Source: Alcanivorax limicola (GTDB lineage: Bacteria; Pseudomonadota; Gammaproteobacteria; Pseudomonadales; Alcanivoracaceae). Taken from it: a DNA stretch of 64,000 bases. The stretch covers positions 186,001 through 250,000 of the forward strand of contig NZ_JAIOUB010000001.1 of NCBI RefSeq assembly GCF_019931215.1, given 5' to 3'. The translations under genes were made by a program, and so were the position numbers. Shown here one piece after another: positions 10,177 through 16,114 of the stretch (its first letter is position 1; each line of letters begins with the position of its first letter). Below the pieces are notes generated by a model, which saw nothing but the letters and a program-made list of their open reading frames with translations, had not been told where the DNA came from and made no database searches.

Positions 10177-10278
10177 ACGCCAGGATGAGCCGCTGCATTG
10201 CGGCCCGACGCCGGGATGCTTATGATGCCGGGCAACCTTGCTGGCACAGTGCCAGCGCCAGGAGGCGAACAAATCACC

Positions 10279-11307
10279 ATGACGGACAAAATGGAAGTCG
10301 CGGCGGTACTGGGCGGTGGCAGTTTCGGCACCGCCATCGCCACAATTCTCGCCCAACAGGGGCATGCGACGCGCCTGTGGGTACGAGACCCGGAAACCGC
10401 GGCGGCAATCAATCGTGACCGCGAGAACCCTCGATACTTCCCGGGTGCCGAGCTGCCTGAAGGCGTGCTGGCCAGTGAAGATCTGCACGAAGTCCTTGGC
10501 GGCGCCACGCTGGTGTTCATGGCGGTGCCGAGCAAGGCGTTCATGGACGTTCTGGCCCAGGCGAGAGACGATATTGCAGAAGGCACTATCGTTGTCAGCT
10601 GCACCAAGGGTATCAGTGCCGATGGCTTCCTGCTGATGAGTCAACTGCTCGAACGGGAGTGGCCGCATACCCGTGTCGGGGTGTTGAGTGGGCCCAATCT
10701 CGCCAGAGAAATTGTCGAGCGCAAGTTTACCGGAACCGTTATTGCCAGCCCCCACCCTGAGGTGTGTCGGCGTATCCAGGATGCGTTGTCCTGTGATTAC
10801 TTCCGGGTCTATGACAGTGCGGACATGTTCGGTGTGGAACTTGGTGGCGCTCTGAAGAATATTTACGCCATCGCGACGGGCATGGCCGCAGCGCTGGGCG
10901 TTGGCGACAATACACGTGGGTTGCTGATCACGCGCAGTCTGGCAGAAATGAGCCGCTTTGCTGCGCACCTCGGGGGGAGCCCGATGACTTTTCTGGGGCT
11001 GGCCGGGGTCGGTGATCTGATCGTGACCTGCTCATCCAGCCTGTCGCGCAACTACCAGGTCGGATACCTGATAGGGCAGGGCAAGACCGTGGAGGAGGCC
11101 GTTGACGTGTTGGGACAGACCGCCGAAGGGGTCAATACCATCCGGCTGGTGGCAGAGCGAGCCCGGGAGCTGGATATTTACATGCCGCTGGCCTCGGGAT
11201 TGTATGAAATCCTCTTCAACCAGCTGCCTCTGACGCAGGTCATCGATTCCCTGATGCGCGGTGAACACAATCACGATGTGGAGTTTGTCCGCGAGGCAGT
11301 ATCCTGA
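10279..11307 (+). CDS. gpsA: Glycerol-3-phosphate dehydrogenase [NAD(P)+]
   Basis: Cytosolic enzyme that reduces dihydroxyacetone phosphate to sn-glycerol-3-phosphate, the backbone for phospholipids. The 342-residue product has the N-terminal GGGSFGTA dinucleotide motif, SGPNLAREI, the catalytic lysine in ELGGALKNIYAIA, and the C-terminal GDLIVTCSS and SRNYQVG motifs. I choose the ATG at 10279, downstream of AGGAGG at 10260-10265; the upstream in-frame ATG at 10198 would add residues unlike the family. Its stop overlaps the sixA start (TGATG). Confidence 0.95.
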   Translation: MTDKMEVAAVLGGGSFGTAIATILAQQGHATRLWVRDPETAAAINRDRENPRYFPGAELPEGVLASEDLHEVLGGATLVFMAVPSKAFMDVLAQARDDIAEGTIVVSCTKGISADGFLLMSQLLEREWPHTRVGVLSGPNLAREIVERKFTGTVIASPHPEVCRRIQDALSCDYFRVYDSADMFGVELGGALKNIYAIATGMAAALGVGDNTRGLLITRSLAEMSRFAAHLGGSPMTFLGLAGVGDLIVTCSSSLSRNYQVGYLIGQGKTVEEAVDVLGQTAEGVNTIRLVAERARELDIYMPLASGLYEILFNQLPLTQVIDSLMRGEHNHDVEFVREAVS

Positions 11308-11792
11308 TGCGCCTGTATGTGGTGCGCCATGGTGAAGCCGAGCGGCAGGTGACGACTGATGAGGCCCGGGCACTGACACCTCGGGGGCGTGAAGGCGTTC
11401 GCCAGCTCTGGGAGACGTTGACCTCAGAGGGAGAGCGCCCGCTGCGGTTGTACACCAGCCCCTATGTGCGTGCGCGCCAGACTGCCGCTGAGATTGCTGA
11501 TATCTGTGGCCTTGACGTGACCGACACCTGCGACTTGCTCGTTCCTGACGGTCATCCGCAACGGGTACTGGACTGGTTGCTGGGTCTGACCATGCAGCCT
11601 GCTGATCAGGATTCACCGCTGGTGCTGGTCAGCCATATGCCCCTGGTGGCGCATCTGGTGGGGCAGCTCTGCGAGGGCCCCTCGGCGCGCCTGCCCATGG
11701 GCGTGGGCGCCGTCGCGGCGCTGGATATGGAGGTGGCGGCCATGGCGGGCGCCAGACTGGCCTGGTTGCGTGCCCCGGGTGACCTTTTCTGA
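11307..11792 (+). CDS. sixA: Phosphohistidine phosphatase SixA
   Basis: A short (161-residue) histidine-phosphatase-superfamily protein beginning MRLYVVRHGEAE, the RHG catalytic motif, with the second conserved histidine in VSHMPLVAHLV. SixA dephosphorylates phosphohistidine on HPt domains or on the nitrogen phosphotransferase protein NPr. Overlap with gpsA by the TGATG junction indicates translational coupling, an arrangement I recall from other gammaproteobacteria. It is followed 12 bp later by a thioesterase gene. Confidence 0.9.
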   Translation: MRLYVVRHGEAERQVTTDEARALTPRGREGVRQLWETLTSEGERPLRLYTSPYVRARQTAAEIADICGLDVTDTCDLLVPDGHPQRVLDWLLGLTMQPADQDSPLVLVSHMPLVAHLVGQLCEGPSARLPMGVGAVAALDMEVAAMAGARLAWLRAPGDLF

Positions 11793-12431: not shown

Positions 12432-13670
12432 ATGGCTGTCAGGACTGAACGTGTTGAAACCAGCGATTTGCAGCTCGGCATGTATGTGTCAGAGCTTGAT
12501 CGTGCCTGGATCGAGACACCCTTCCCGTTACAAGGCTTCCACATCAAGACTCAGGATGATGTCGAGCAGCTCCGGGTCTGGTGCCGGCATGTCTATATCG
12601 ATCGCCAACTGAGCACCTGCAAGCTCGAACCGCAGGCCGCGGCATCAGCGCCAGCCCGTCCACGGGTCCGTGGCGGTATCGGCAAGTTCACCCCGGTAAA
12701 ATACGAAGTCAGCCAGACACTCAAGCAAGAGGTGGTGTCTGCCACCCTGTATCACCGCGAGGTAACCCGCGCTGTGGTGCATCTGCTCAATGATCTGCGC
12801 GCGGAAAAGGGCCTCAACCTGCGTGTGGCACGCAAGGCGGCGGCGGTCATGGTGCACAGCATCCTGCGTAATCCGGACGCCATGGTGTGGCTGGCGCGTA
12901 TCAAGGATTGTGATAGCTACGGTTATGCGCACAGTATCCGGGCTTCAATCCTGGCCACGGTGTTTGGCCGTCATATCGGACTGCCCCGGGACGTACTCGA
13001 AAACCTCGCCACTGGTGTGTTGCTGATGGATACCGGCAAGACCCGTCTGCCGCGCAGCATGCTGGTCAGCACGGAGCGATACGGACCGGAAGACCATGCC
13101 GCCATGCGCGAGCACGTGAATCATGGCATTGAGCTGCTGCAGCACTGTGGCGGCGTAAACGACCAGATGCTGGCGGTGGTGCAATACCATCATGAGCGCC
13201 ATGATGGCAGCGGCTATCCCTTTGGTCTCAAGGGAGGGGAAATCCCCTTGCTGGCACGCATTGCCGGGATCGTCGACACCTATGACGCGATGACCAGCGA
13301 CCGTCCCTGGGCACAGGCCCGGACAGCTACTGAGGCGGTGTCCGAATTGTATGAGCTGCGCGACAGCGGTTTTCAGAGCGCGCTGGTGGAGCAGTTTATT
13401 CAGGCGGTCGGTGTTTACCCGACCGGCACGGCGGTCGAGTTATCCAATGGTGACAAGGGTATTGTAGTGGCACAGAACGCGACACGGCGTTTGCGCCCCC
13501 AGGTCATGGTGATTCGCGATGCCAGTGGTAACACGCTGGAGCGGCCGCATATTGTGGACCTGATGAGCGTACAGCGGGACGCAGACGATTTGCCTCTGGC
13601 TGTGGCCGGATGTATTCGTGCCAGCAGCGAGAAACTGGATCTGGTCAATTTGCAGATCAACGCGGTCTGA
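12432..13670 (+). CDS. HD-GYP domain protein (DUF3391 type) with altered HD dyad
   Basis: A 412-residue protein with an N-terminal DUF3391 domain (about 1-130, starting MAVRTERVETSDLQLGMYVS) and a C-terminal HD-GYP domain (about 135-345). HD-GYP proteins hydrolyse the second messenger cyclic di-GMP using a metal centre. The GYP segment HHERHDGSGYP (253-263) and the IVDTYDAMTSDRP helix are intact. The position that should read HD in the LLHDIGK motif is LLMDTGK (199-203), replacing a metal-binding histidine with methionine. The protein may therefore have reduced or different metal loading, or act as a sensor. Family assignment is firm; catalytic activity is doubtful. Confidence 0.9.
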   Translation: MAVRTERVETSDLQLGMYVSELDRAWIETPFPLQGFHIKTQDDVEQLRVWCRHVYIDRQLSTCKLEPQAAASAPARPRVRGGIGKFTPVKYEVSQTLKQEVVSATLYHREVTRAVVHLLNDLRAEKGLNLRVARKAAAVMVHSILRNPDAMVWLARIKDCDSYGYAHSIRASILATVFGRHIGLPRDVLENLATGVLLMDTGKTRLPRSMLVSTERYGPEDHAAMREHVNHGIELLQHCGGVNDQMLAVVQYHHERHDGSGYPFGLKGGEIPLLARIAGIVDTYDAMTSDRPWAQARTATEAVSELYELRDSGFQSALVEQFIQAVGVYPTGTAVELSNGDKGIVVAQNATRRLRPQVMVIRDASGNTLERPHIVDLMSVQRDADDLPLAVAGCIRASSEKLDLVNLQINAV

Positions 13671-13684
13671 AGGCCGGCTTCGTT

Positions 13685-14047
13685 TTATTGCTCCGCCTTC
13701 TCAAGTAGCAGCGGCTCCAGCGGTTTGCCATCACTGCCCTGGAGTGTCACGCTTACCGTCATGTTGCGCAGAGGCGCATGGCCGGGAATTTCACGTAAAC
13801 GTCGCACATAATCCTTAACCCGCCCTGCGATCCAAGGGTGAACCGTGGCGTCTATCTGCACGGCGCCACAGCGCTTGCCGCGTTTGGCATACCATATCAG
13901 CAAGGCGGCACTGAACGCCTCATAGCAGGGCTTGAATGCGTCGAAATCATCCGCTGCGAAGGTAATCAGGAAAACACGCTTGCGCGTCAGCAATCCGGGC
14001 ATTTTTTTATCGGTGAGTGTCAGCCCCGGCGGCAAGGTTTCTGTCAT
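13685..14047 (-). CDS. Uncharacterised 120-residue protein coupled to the voltage-sensor-like gene
   Basis: I do not recognise this protein. It is 120 residues, has no membrane helix or signal peptide, and reads as a mixed alpha/beta soluble protein (RVFLITFAADDFDAFKPCYE, LLIWYAKRGKRCGAVQID, VKDYVRRLREIPGH). It starts at an ATG overlapping the stop of the upstream membrane protein gene by 4 bases (ATGA), which implies coupled translation and perhaps a shared task. It converges on the HD-GYP gene with 14 bp between stops. Confidence 0.72.
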   Translation of the reverse strand: MTETLPPGLTLTDKKMPGLLTRKRVFLITFAADDFDAFKPCYEAFSAALLIWYAKRGKRCGAVQIDATVHPWIAGRVKDYVRRLREIPGHAPLRNMTVSVTLQGSDGKPLEPLLLEKAEQ

Positions 14048-15135
14048 AACGGATTTCCTCTGCGGTTACCTTCGGCTTTGGCGGCTTTGGCGGTTTTGGC
14101 AGCTTTGCGTTCAGCCTCTGCGCGTTCTTCTTCCAGTTTCCAGTTCTGTACCGCCACCTGCCGCTTTATCTGGTCCAGCACGTCCATCAACGTATCGCGA
14201 ACCAGACTGTTGAGCTGCTCGGCGTTGCCCGCGCTGTTCTCGATCAGGTCATTGAGAAGCTTGTCGACGGTGTCCCGGTAATCCGGGTGGCTGATATCGG
14301 CAATCAGTTGGTCTACCAGTGCGATACCGACCTCCCGAACCGCCTCACCGATCAAGGCGACAGCGCGTGGCCCGGCAACGGGTATGGCGGCCAGGCGAGC
14401 ACCGCTGCGGGTGTTGCCCAGCGCCTCGTCGGTGAGGTGCGACAGGTACCGCCCCAGGGGTTCCCGATAATCGGCATGGGTTTCCTGAGCAGCGCTGATC
14501 AGTCGCCCGGCGGCGAAGTCCACCAGACTGGCCTGGCGTGGCAGCAGGACTTCATGCTGGATACGCTGCATCAACGGGTTGCCCTCGCTGATTTCCCGCT
14601 GCACGCCATCCAGTACATTGAGTACGACGCGGTCGGAGATTTCCTCCACCAGCACTTTGTAGTATTTCAGAAGTGTGGCGCCGATGTAGGTGTCGCGAAG
14701 GTCTATCACGCCCAGCCGCTGAAGACGCAGCAGCAGACTGATGATGCGCAGGGTACGGAGCCAGCGGAAACCGCCAACCGGAATGCAGCCCAGCAGATCG
14801 TACCAGTGAATAAACGGAAAGAAGAACCAGCGATGATAGGTTTGCCGGGCTGCCGCGATGATCCAGCGAACCAGGAATTCCGTCAGATAGACGGCGACAA
14901 ACCACAGGTCATAGAAGAAGAAATCAGCGTGAATCGTGTCTGCGTACAGTGCTGTCAGATCGGGGGCGACCGCAGCCAGCGCATCCTGAACCCGAGACAC
15001 GGCAAACAGCCAGTCAAAGATGATCAGGGAGAGGTTGATGACCACCAGGATGATCATCAACACGTCCACCAGCAGCCCGAGGCGGTCCCAGAGGTTGCTG
15101 GCGCGGAACTTGTCGGGGTGCAGATGCACGCTCAT
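14044..15135 (-). CDS. Voltage-sensor-like membrane protein without a visible pore domain
   Basis: A 363-residue protein with four N-terminal membrane-type segments: about residues 20-45, 72-96, 103-120 and 122-142. The fourth carries arginines at 124, 127, 130, 137 and 140, an every-third-residue ladder typical of voltage-sensor S4 helices; the second has acidic E86 and the third a WYD motif (111-113), as voltage-sensor countercharges do. After it no pore helix or selectivity-filter motif appears. The remaining 220 residues look soluble and helical and end in a charged Ala/Glu/Lys tail. Homologues may be labelled ion transporter. The ATG at 15135 follows the xthA stop by 2 bases and has AGGGA upstream. 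Confidence 0.75.
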   Translation of the reverse strand: MSVHLHPDKFRASNLWDRLGLLVDVLMIILVVINLSLIIFDWLFAVSRVQDALAAVAPDLTALYADTIHADFFFYDLWFVAVYLTEFLVRWIIAAARQTYHRWFFFPFIHWYDLLGCIPVGGFRWLRTLRIISLLLRLQRLGVIDLRDTYIGATLLKYYKVLVEEISDRVVLNVLDGVQREISEGNPLMQRIQHEVLLPRQASLVDFAAGRLISAAQETHADYREPLGRYLSHLTDEALGNTRSGARLAAIPVAGPRAVALIGEAVREVGIALVDQLIADISHPDYRDTVDKLLNDLIENSAGNAEQLNSLVRDTLMDVLDQIKRQVAVQNWKLEEERAEAERKAAKTAKAAKAEGNRRGNPL

Positions 15136-15137
15136 GC

Positions 15138-15950
15138 TCAGTCCCTGAAACGTGCCCAGACCGGACAATGGTCAGAAGGGCGTTCCATGGCGCGTATGCC
15201 GTAATCGATACCGGTATCTTCCAACCGGTCGATCAGTGGCGCTGTAGCCAGCACGGTATCAATGCGCAGGCCGCGTCGCGGTTCCCGCTCAAACCCTTTC
15301 GAGCGGTAGTCAAACCAGCTGAAGCGATCGTCGGCCTCGGGATAATTGACCCGGTAGGTGTCGGCGAGGCCCCAGTCCAGGAGTTCGTCGAACCATTCCC
15401 GCTCTTCTGGCAGAAAGCTGCATTTGCCATCACGCAACCAGCGTTTGCGATTGCTGTCGCCAATGCCGATGTCGGTGTCCCGGGAGGAAATGTTGAAGTC
15501 GCCCATGATGGCGACTTGCTCGTCCGGTTGGTGCTGATCCTGCAAGTAGCGTTGCAGATCTGCATAGAAGCGGGCTTTTGCAGGAAACTTGATCGGATGA
15601 TCGCGGCTTTCGCCCTGGGGGAAATAGCCGTTCAGCACGGTCAGTGACTGGCCGTTGTACTGCATCCGGCCGATGATCATGCGCCGCTGGGCGGCAGGTT
15701 CATCAGAGGGAAAACCATACTGCACTGCCGCCAAAGGCTCCCGGCTGATCAGTGCGACACCGTAGTGGCCCTTTTGCCCGAAGAAATAGGGGTGATAACC
15801 CATTTCCCTGACCGCCTCGGCAGGAAACTCGTCATCCTGAACCTTGGTTTCCTGAAGTCCGATCAGATCCGGTTGGTGCTGGCTGATGACCGCTTCAAGT
15901 TGCGGCAGACGGGCGCGGATACTGTTGATATTGAATGAAACCAGTTTCAT
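15138..15950 (-). CDS. xthA: Exodeoxyribonuclease III (AP endonuclease)
   Basis: Mg2+-dependent 3'-5' exonuclease and abasic-site endonuclease of base-excision repair, exonuclease-endonuclease-phosphatase superfamily. The 270-residue product shows every catalytic motif: [19 protein letters not shown] with the metal-binding glutamate, [16 protein letters not shown] and the terminal PSDHCPVW. The ATG at 15950 is preceded by GGAGGAAGG; four in-frame codons upstream would erase this site. It appears to be the first gene of a leftward operon with the voltage-sensor-like protein and the 120-residue protein. Confidence 0.95.
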
Positions 15951-16114
15951 GCCTTCCTCCATTGCTGGTTGGCATTGTAGGGTGGCGCCGCGTCGGTCAC
16001 CAGCTTTTGCCGGGCTTCCGCATCACTTCATCAACATGCCGTGGCTGGCGCCATCGTGCAAGGCATGGTTCCATACGCTTCGCACTTGCCGATCAGCACG
16101 CAATGAGGATCACC

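Follow-up and report, generated by a model that had tools for sequence, protein, structure and literature searches.

What does a voltage-sensor domain (VSD) do in a bacterial protein that has no ion-conducting pore? The question is raised by a 363-residue protein encoded in the window, by which we mean the whole 64,000-nucleotide stretch of Alcanivorax limicola DNA that was analyzed. A preliminary description of this stretch saw in the protein four membrane segments resembling a voltage sensor, with a soluble helical region after them where a pore would be expected, and took the next gene, encoding a 120-residue protein of no recognized family, to be its likely partner in a two-part effector. 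Hv1 proton channels and voltage-sensing phosphatases were named as the known proteins of this kind.

The features of the locus are collected in Table 1. On the minus strand of the window, the genes follow one another in the order xthA, VSD gene, 120-aa gene. The gap between xthA and the VSD gene is 2 nt; the latter starts with ATG at 15135 and stops with TGA at 14046–14044, and the ATG of the 120-aa gene lies at 14047–14045, so that the ATGA overlap reported previously agrees with the ORF coordinates. The DUF3391 + HD gene, which is convergent with the 120-aa gene, is also found beside the VSD locus in L050, L052, L061, and L085. Window positions 10198–11792, close to the locus, hold a gpsA-like and a SixA-like gene (both named by eye), and clusters of such genes stay near the VSD locus, in convergent orientation, in a number of Alcanivoracaceae loci.

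Table 1. Coordinates of the locus features, counted from the first nucleotide of the window
Feature	Position	Strand	Basis
Pore-less voltage-sensor protein, 363 aa	14044..15135	minus	ORF, family alignment
120-aa protein, orphan homologue of VSD-linked Ser/Thr kinase C-terminal domain	13685..14047	minus	
xthA, exodeoxyribonuclease III	15138..15962	minus	NCBIfam PRK11756, E 2.5e-134; synteny
DUF3391 + HD domain protein (HD-GYP-type by our own naming)	12432..13670	plus	Pfam
VSD, residues 15-142 (S1 15-44, S2 72-97, short S3 103-115, S4 about 121-140)	14710..15093	minus	AlphaFold2 model, VIA, hhalign
S2, residues 72-97, D76/Y83/E86/R90 at canonical spacing	14845..14922	minus	alignment
S4, residues 121-140, R124, R127, R130, R137, R140 (DSSP helix 126-140)	14716..14775	minus	alignment, model
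All-helical C-terminal region, residues 146-360 (about 215)	14056..14700	minus	model, conservation

The residues on which the voltage-sensor reading was originally built, E86, W111-Y112-D113, and R124, R127, R130, R137, and R140, are all where they had been placed. Their conservation was read from an alignment of 77 homologues from six phyla (A2: the window protein and 76 loci, chosen from those in hand to thin near-copies and leaving out the 94-aa fragment L037 and the true channel L038); removal of L049, L092, L097, and L104 from this set gave alignment A5. R124, R127, and R130 are invariant (77/77), and W91, W103, Y112, G116, and P119 are also kept in every member. The charge-transfer center, which consists of an aromatic and an acidic residue in S2 and an acidic residue in S3, is present: position 83 is F or Y in 75/77, position 86 is acidic in 76/77 (E in 68, D in 8), and position 113 is D in 76/77 and E in the remaining one. 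D76 is kept in 76/77 homologues and D41 in 72/77, with E in four others, and residue 133 is S in 58/77. The spacings 34–41, 76–86, 83–86, 86–90, and 113–119 are identical in all 77, and the dN/dS (NG86) of the VSD gene against its nearest relative is 0.055. Because the arginines are invariant, the spacings fixed, and dN/dS at this value, the VSD pattern is more than chance. A truncated channel gene was rejected in view of the 77 homologues and purifying selection.

This region is a VSD homologous to S1–S4 of voltage-gated channels. Scanned singly, the window protein matches Pfam Ion_trans weakly (E 2.2); across the 77 members, scanned in the same way, no family matches more often than Ion_trans (25/77 at E<=1, best 0.0014), and neither the window protein nor its homologues match any Pfam or NCBIfam family at a convincing score. 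When the 77-member VSD alignment was compared by hhalign with 30 bacterial Ion_trans channels (L038 and 29 chosen from 39 listed Ion_trans matches), the probability was 97.0% (E 1e-10), with S1–S4 in register; by channel subset, it was 97.4% for Kv-type and 92.0% for Nav-type channels. Reversed sides, used as controls, gave 1.2% and 3.7%, and 10 column shuffles gave at most 3.6%. The first VSD-family profile also matched L038, a genuine potassium channel with the TVGYGD motif, at E 6.6e-4. In S2 of the channels, 29/30 have an aromatic residue three positions before the glutamate and R/K four positions after it, and 23 of those 29 also have D/E ten positions before it; the S3 Asp-to-Pro distance is six in 77/77 homologues and in several Kv-type channels as well. 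Searches of PDB sequences at E up to 10, either with the whole protein (phmmer) or with a profile of its VSD part, returned no chain; profile A1 gave one chance match (E 0.39), and the 77-member profile gave helical-repeat and other chance matches (best E 0.017).

The AlphaFold2 model (77-row alignment; mean pLDDT 92, pTM 0.66) has S4 at residues 126–140 by DSSP and helices throughout residues 150–360. A comparison with known sensor structures had been proposed at the outset, and in VIA superpositions residues 15–144, S4 included, indeed lie on known VSDs: those of hERG (residues 16–144, Z 8.2, 3.2 Å over 104 residues), Kv4.2 (residues 15–136, Z 8.5, 4.1 Å over 104 residues), and NavAb (residues 13–144, Z 8.3, 4.7 Å over 106 residues). 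All but one of the 50 VIA matches listed (Z 7.1–8.7) carry the title of a voltage-gated or CNG channel, the exception being titled only "channel D complex"; 25 of the 50 are compact (rmsd 3.1–5.4 Å over 99–110 residues), and the other 25, the top row included, have an rmsd of 8.7 Å or more and reach into the helical tail. Z values of 7–9 are modest for a helical model, below the comfort level of the tool, and could reflect a common helix arrangement. There is no Hv1 structure among the 50 matches listed, an absence that proves nothing, and Foldseek with the whole model gave no significant match (best E 0.16). Taken with hhalign and conservation, the model and its superposition bear out the four-segment, VSD-like N-terminal region of the preliminary description.

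The missing pore is equally borne out by hydropathy, filter pattern, and model. Past residue 145, the top 19-residue hydropathy is at most 1.55 in the 77 homologues, versus at least 2.27 past residue 110 in 30/30 channel fragments. The K+-filter pattern occurs in 0/77 homologues versus 10/30 channels. The model has no S5-pore-S6-like part; no two-helix pore follows S4, which superposes within the VSD. On the one hand, the family resembles prokaryotic Kv and BacNav channels (Ion_trans, PF00520) in its homologous S1–S4, countercharge spacing, and S4 arginines. On the other hand, it differs from them in lacking S5–S6 and the selectivity filter, in having a near-absent S3–S4 loop, and in carrying a long helical tail.

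Does such a domain still sense voltage? The linker from P119 in S3 to R124 in S4 is 4 residues long in 75/77 homologues, leaving S3b and the S3–S4 loop nearly gone; in the seven channels where the equivalent linker is measurable, it has 9–16 residues in six and 2 in one (L038 was excluded because its value was a spurious pattern match). With a linker of 4 residues, S4 travel may be small. The VSD fold could even have been retained as a mere membrane anchor or scaffold without voltage sensing, in line with this shortened loop and with what is known of other VSDs, e.g., those of CNG channels, which are nearly voltage-independent. However, a scaffold would not need all of the S4 arginines and countercharges, and these are precisely what the 77 homologues preserve (R124, R127, R130, D113, D76, and an acidic residue at position 86, at the frequencies given above); we therefore regard this explanation as unlikely.

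A protein that works like Hv1, with the VSD itself conducting protons under voltage control and the tail only dimerizing, would provide relief of pH or membrane potential; we find this somewhat less probable again. The S4 signature of Hv1 is RxWRxxR, and a typical Hv1 was rejected because this signature occurs in 0/77 homologues. Hv1 also has a selectivity aspartate in S1, the place of which we take, through spacing, to be position 34 of the VSD family; this position is N in 74 homologues, S in 2, and D in 1 (N34 in the window protein), so the aspartate is missing in nearly all. Even so, the gross architecture, a pore-less VSD with helical cytoplasmic tail, is that of Hv1, the S4 pattern of three arginines and then a small residue (S133 in most homologues) resembles its R1–R3 followed by N, and D is found at position 34 in 7/20 Moraxellaceae homologues. 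The large conserved tail, much longer than that of Hv1 and with nearly invariant residues of its own, suggests more than dimerization, and the family is bacterial. The conserved tryptophan in S4 of Hv1 is described in a 2023 proton-channel review (PMC10377628). As a separate observation, the seven Moraxellaceae homologues with D at position 34 are the better candidates for a proton current.

Least probable, to the point of being improbable, is that the protein serves a pore-bearing channel encoded elsewhere in the genome as an accessory or silent subunit assembled with it. The window genome does have one ordinary Ion_trans channel above the Pfam cut-off. In a search of 578 crudely called ORF products from 98 loci, however, the profile of the 30 channels matched (E up to 1) 31 members of the VSD family and L038, one of the sequences on which it was trained; the 480 neighboring products gave no match. 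The C-terminal tail, moreover, has no Pfam family. A voltage-sensing phosphatase, similar as it is in coupling a VSD to a cytoplasmic output region, was rejected, since neither the Pfam matches of the window protein nor the 25 families listed for the 77 members include such a family, and the tail is all-helical in the model. Identity with Hv1 or a voltage-sensing phosphatase, the known pore-less sensors named in the preliminary description, is therefore not supported.

The helical region after the VSD is as had been described, about 215 residues instead of 220. It carries a conserved EE-x-SDR motif at 164–169, near its start, and K324, V327, and W332 near its end. No enzyme or other family was found in it at a convincing score by Pfam, the 25 families listed for the 77 members included. 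Folded alone, the region gives a pLDDT of 87 and a pTM of 0.57. Foldseek with this region found no significant match (best E 0.066, to chemoreceptor rods), and the best VIA match had Z 7.4 at 19 Å rmsd, with large rmsd values throughout the top rows. We read the rod-like matches as a sign of shared long helices, not of kinship; judging from the model, the region is probably an extended, oligomeric stalk.

The explanation to which we lean, with moderate confidence, is that the 363-residue protein is a membrane-potential sensor that stands alone and feeds into cytoplasmic signaling. We infer the voltage sensing and signaling, along with S4 movement, oligomerization, and partner contact; VSD homology, pore absence, conservation, gene order, and the homology of the 120-residue protein to a kinase tail were computed. 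The protein would be an integral-membrane VSD (S1–S4) whose S4 continues, where a channel has its pore, into a long helical region in the cytoplasm that is probably oligomeric. When the membrane potential changes, S4 would move or re-tilt, so that R124, R127, and R130 would pass the charge-transfer center of Y/F83, E86, and D113. The shift would alter the post-S4 helix (residues 150–183, with the EE-x-SDR motif) and hence the helical tail, which would be read by cytoplasmic proteins, with partners differing between lineages. The likely readers in Alcanivorax would be a receiver protein and a Ser/Thr kinase encoded just downstream; in the clade of the window, the C-terminal domain of the kinase would be left alone as reader, in the form of the 120-residue protein.

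What may tie the 120-residue protein to this scheme is its ancestry. The strictly adjacent gene of the VSD gene in the bacterial group of the window is xthA, directly upstream, and not the 120-aa gene: xthA holds this place in 30/30 loci of relatives and in 35/80 named loci, two sets that overlap. The 30 loci were read with flanks of 1.5 kb only, so failure to see the 120-aa gene in them carries little weight; the 35 were read with flanks of 3 kb. In 17 of these 35, the order is xthA, VSD gene, receiver, and kinase, with a domain like the 120-residue protein as the tail of the kinase, the receiver and kinase having been assigned by tblastn to one Pfam-checked locus, L054 (receiver PF00072, E 2.2e-26; Ser/Thr kinase PF00069, E 2.4e-51). 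Three of the 35 have the receiver and a free tail, the kinase part being gone; two, and likewise the window, have the free tail only, with the receiver gone as well; and 13 have neither receiver nor kinase or tail within the 3 kb flanks, one of them (L055, left out of the tree described below) with a flank too short to show either. In Alcanivoracaceae loci, what varies between the VSD gene and the gpsA-like and SixA-like genes is this receiver-kinase cassette. Among the 80 named loci, both the cassette and the directly adjacent xthA are confined to the Alcanivoracaceae clade of the tree and L085.

The 120-residue protein is homologous to the last ~115 residues of the kinase, with 41% identity and E 2.1e-21 over query residues 273–399, and itself has no kinase domain; the two other matches to the kinase query in the window genome cover the kinase part only. 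Thus, it is homologous to the C-terminal domain that Hanks-type Ser/Thr kinases (PF00069) carry in the same locus of relatives, and it is unlike these kinases in that the kinase domain is gone. Among 274 genomes of the class, the tail domain was found in the genome of the window only. The earlier statement that the partner belongs to no recognized family holds in so far as neither Pfam nor NCBIfam gives the 120-aa gene a family at a convincing score, and in an alignment of 14 of the loci carrying the tail domain (A4) the best Pfam matches are DUF2188 (E 0.0036) and FhaA_N (E 0.029), in one member each; it does not hold in so far as the protein is a homologue of a kinase C-terminal domain. The gene is under purifying selection (dN/dS 0.10 by NG86 against the nearest relative).

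In a tree of 44 VSD proteins, the free-tail clade of the window (SH-aLRT 99) is sister to a locus with receiver plus free tail (97). The group around this clade, whose base is unresolved, holds several whole cassettes, and L085, about which the tool warns, stands outside it on a long, weakly joined branch (71), yet has a whole cassette. The tree is a quick one, with SH-aLRT support only and long branches, and was rooted with nine selected outgroup rows; parsimony on it implies loss of the kinase domain, with the tail kept, along three branches. The simplest history suggested by these sequences is one of loss, first of the kinase domain and then of the receiver, with the tail retained. An obligate pair of VSD and 120-residue protein was rejected, because the two genes are directly adjacent only in the small clade of the window; direct pairing is accordingly peculiar to this clade. 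The better supported reading is that the 120-residue protein is the tail that stayed behind from a Ser/Thr kinase linked to the VSD, and for that reason a functional link to the VSD protein is still plausible. We infer that it may be the tail domain, rather than catalysis, that stays tied to the sensor.

The family extends well beyond this clade, as counted in samples or by pattern-limited searches. With the window genome counted each time, matches were found in 39/57 sampled relatives, in 7/274 evenly drawn genomes of the class (one of them the 94-aa fragment), and in 13/299 genomes of the phylum. Two short peptide patterns run against genome contigs gave 295 encoding stretches, the best 80 of which come, judging by record titles, from Pseudomonadota (53), Balneolota (13), Bacteroidota (10), Calditrichota (2), Bdellovibrionota (1), and Rhodothermota (1). 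The neighborhoods in these 80 named loci vary, with the reservation that ORF calling was crude, that some frames are antisense, and that each cluster was named from a single member checked by Pfam. A DUF1631-GGDEF-EAL gene immediately precedes the VSD gene in nine loci (L084, L086, L088, L089, L093, L097, L099, L105, and L106), seven of which have an HD-GYP-like gene downstream, as in the window, and an ECF sigma factor gene does so in 5/80. Such repeated regulatory neighbors outside the clade of the window speak in favor of the sensor reading. Other clades have neighbors without an evident signaling role, namely, queG (downstream in 11/80), an amidase (8/80), a thioesterase, and a transporter. 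A shorter pore-less VSD relative of 261 aa is encoded in another genome (L049 1303–2085), with a cNMP-binding/patatin-like neighbor named by eye.

With the Acinetobacter baumannii homologue as query, matches were obtained in 46/61 genomes of one family, one of them marginal (E 3.1e-4); because the best matches share 75% identity with the query, we take this family to be Moraxellaceae. In the best 20 of the 46 loci (L168–L187), minC is always the next recognized gene after the VSD gene on the same strand (20/20, gaps of 118–509 nt), minD was seen in 19, and an acyltransferase gene lies upstream in 18. In the A. baumannii records L165 (3815–4861) and L166 (3815–4861), the VSD gene is upstream of minC, minD, and minE. 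Several of the plasmid records involved (hits H3, H6, and H7) are chromosome-sized (3.7–4.1 Mb), so a plasmid location of the homologue cannot be deduced. All 20 Moraxellaceae homologues have E instead of D in S3 and L in place of the S2 aromatic residue, and all keep R124, R127, R130, E86, and R90. MinD localization in bacteria reportedly depends on membrane potential. Tentatively, and with less assurance than for the sensor itself, bacterial stand-alone sensors of this family might signal membrane potential without ion flow, in Alcanivoracaceae via a receiver and a Ser/Thr kinase (or its orphan tail) and in Moraxellaceae in connection with division-site placement by the Min system.

The 2023 review reports, after database searches, that every prokaryotic VSD is joined to a pore for K+, Na+, or Ca2+ (PMC10377628), and the present family appears to be an exception. 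Since known prokaryotic VSDs are said there to carry a pore domain throughout, a pore-less bacterial VSD family looks undescribed; the titles and abstract beginnings listed in literature searches mention none, which is weak evidence of absence, as the searches were partly unproductive. Two A. baumannii records annotate the VSD homologue as "preprotein translocase subunit SecA," and the identity of the family corrects this annotation. The family also supplies small, soluble-tailed VSDs for biophysics. If these sensors do signal membrane potential without ion flow, they would be the prokaryotic equivalent of the voltage-sensing enzymes of eukaryotes, with an output that is separate and swappable. 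If the family senses voltage, the question of how bacteria sense membrane potential becomes directly testable, and some bacteria could read membrane voltage directly as a signal.
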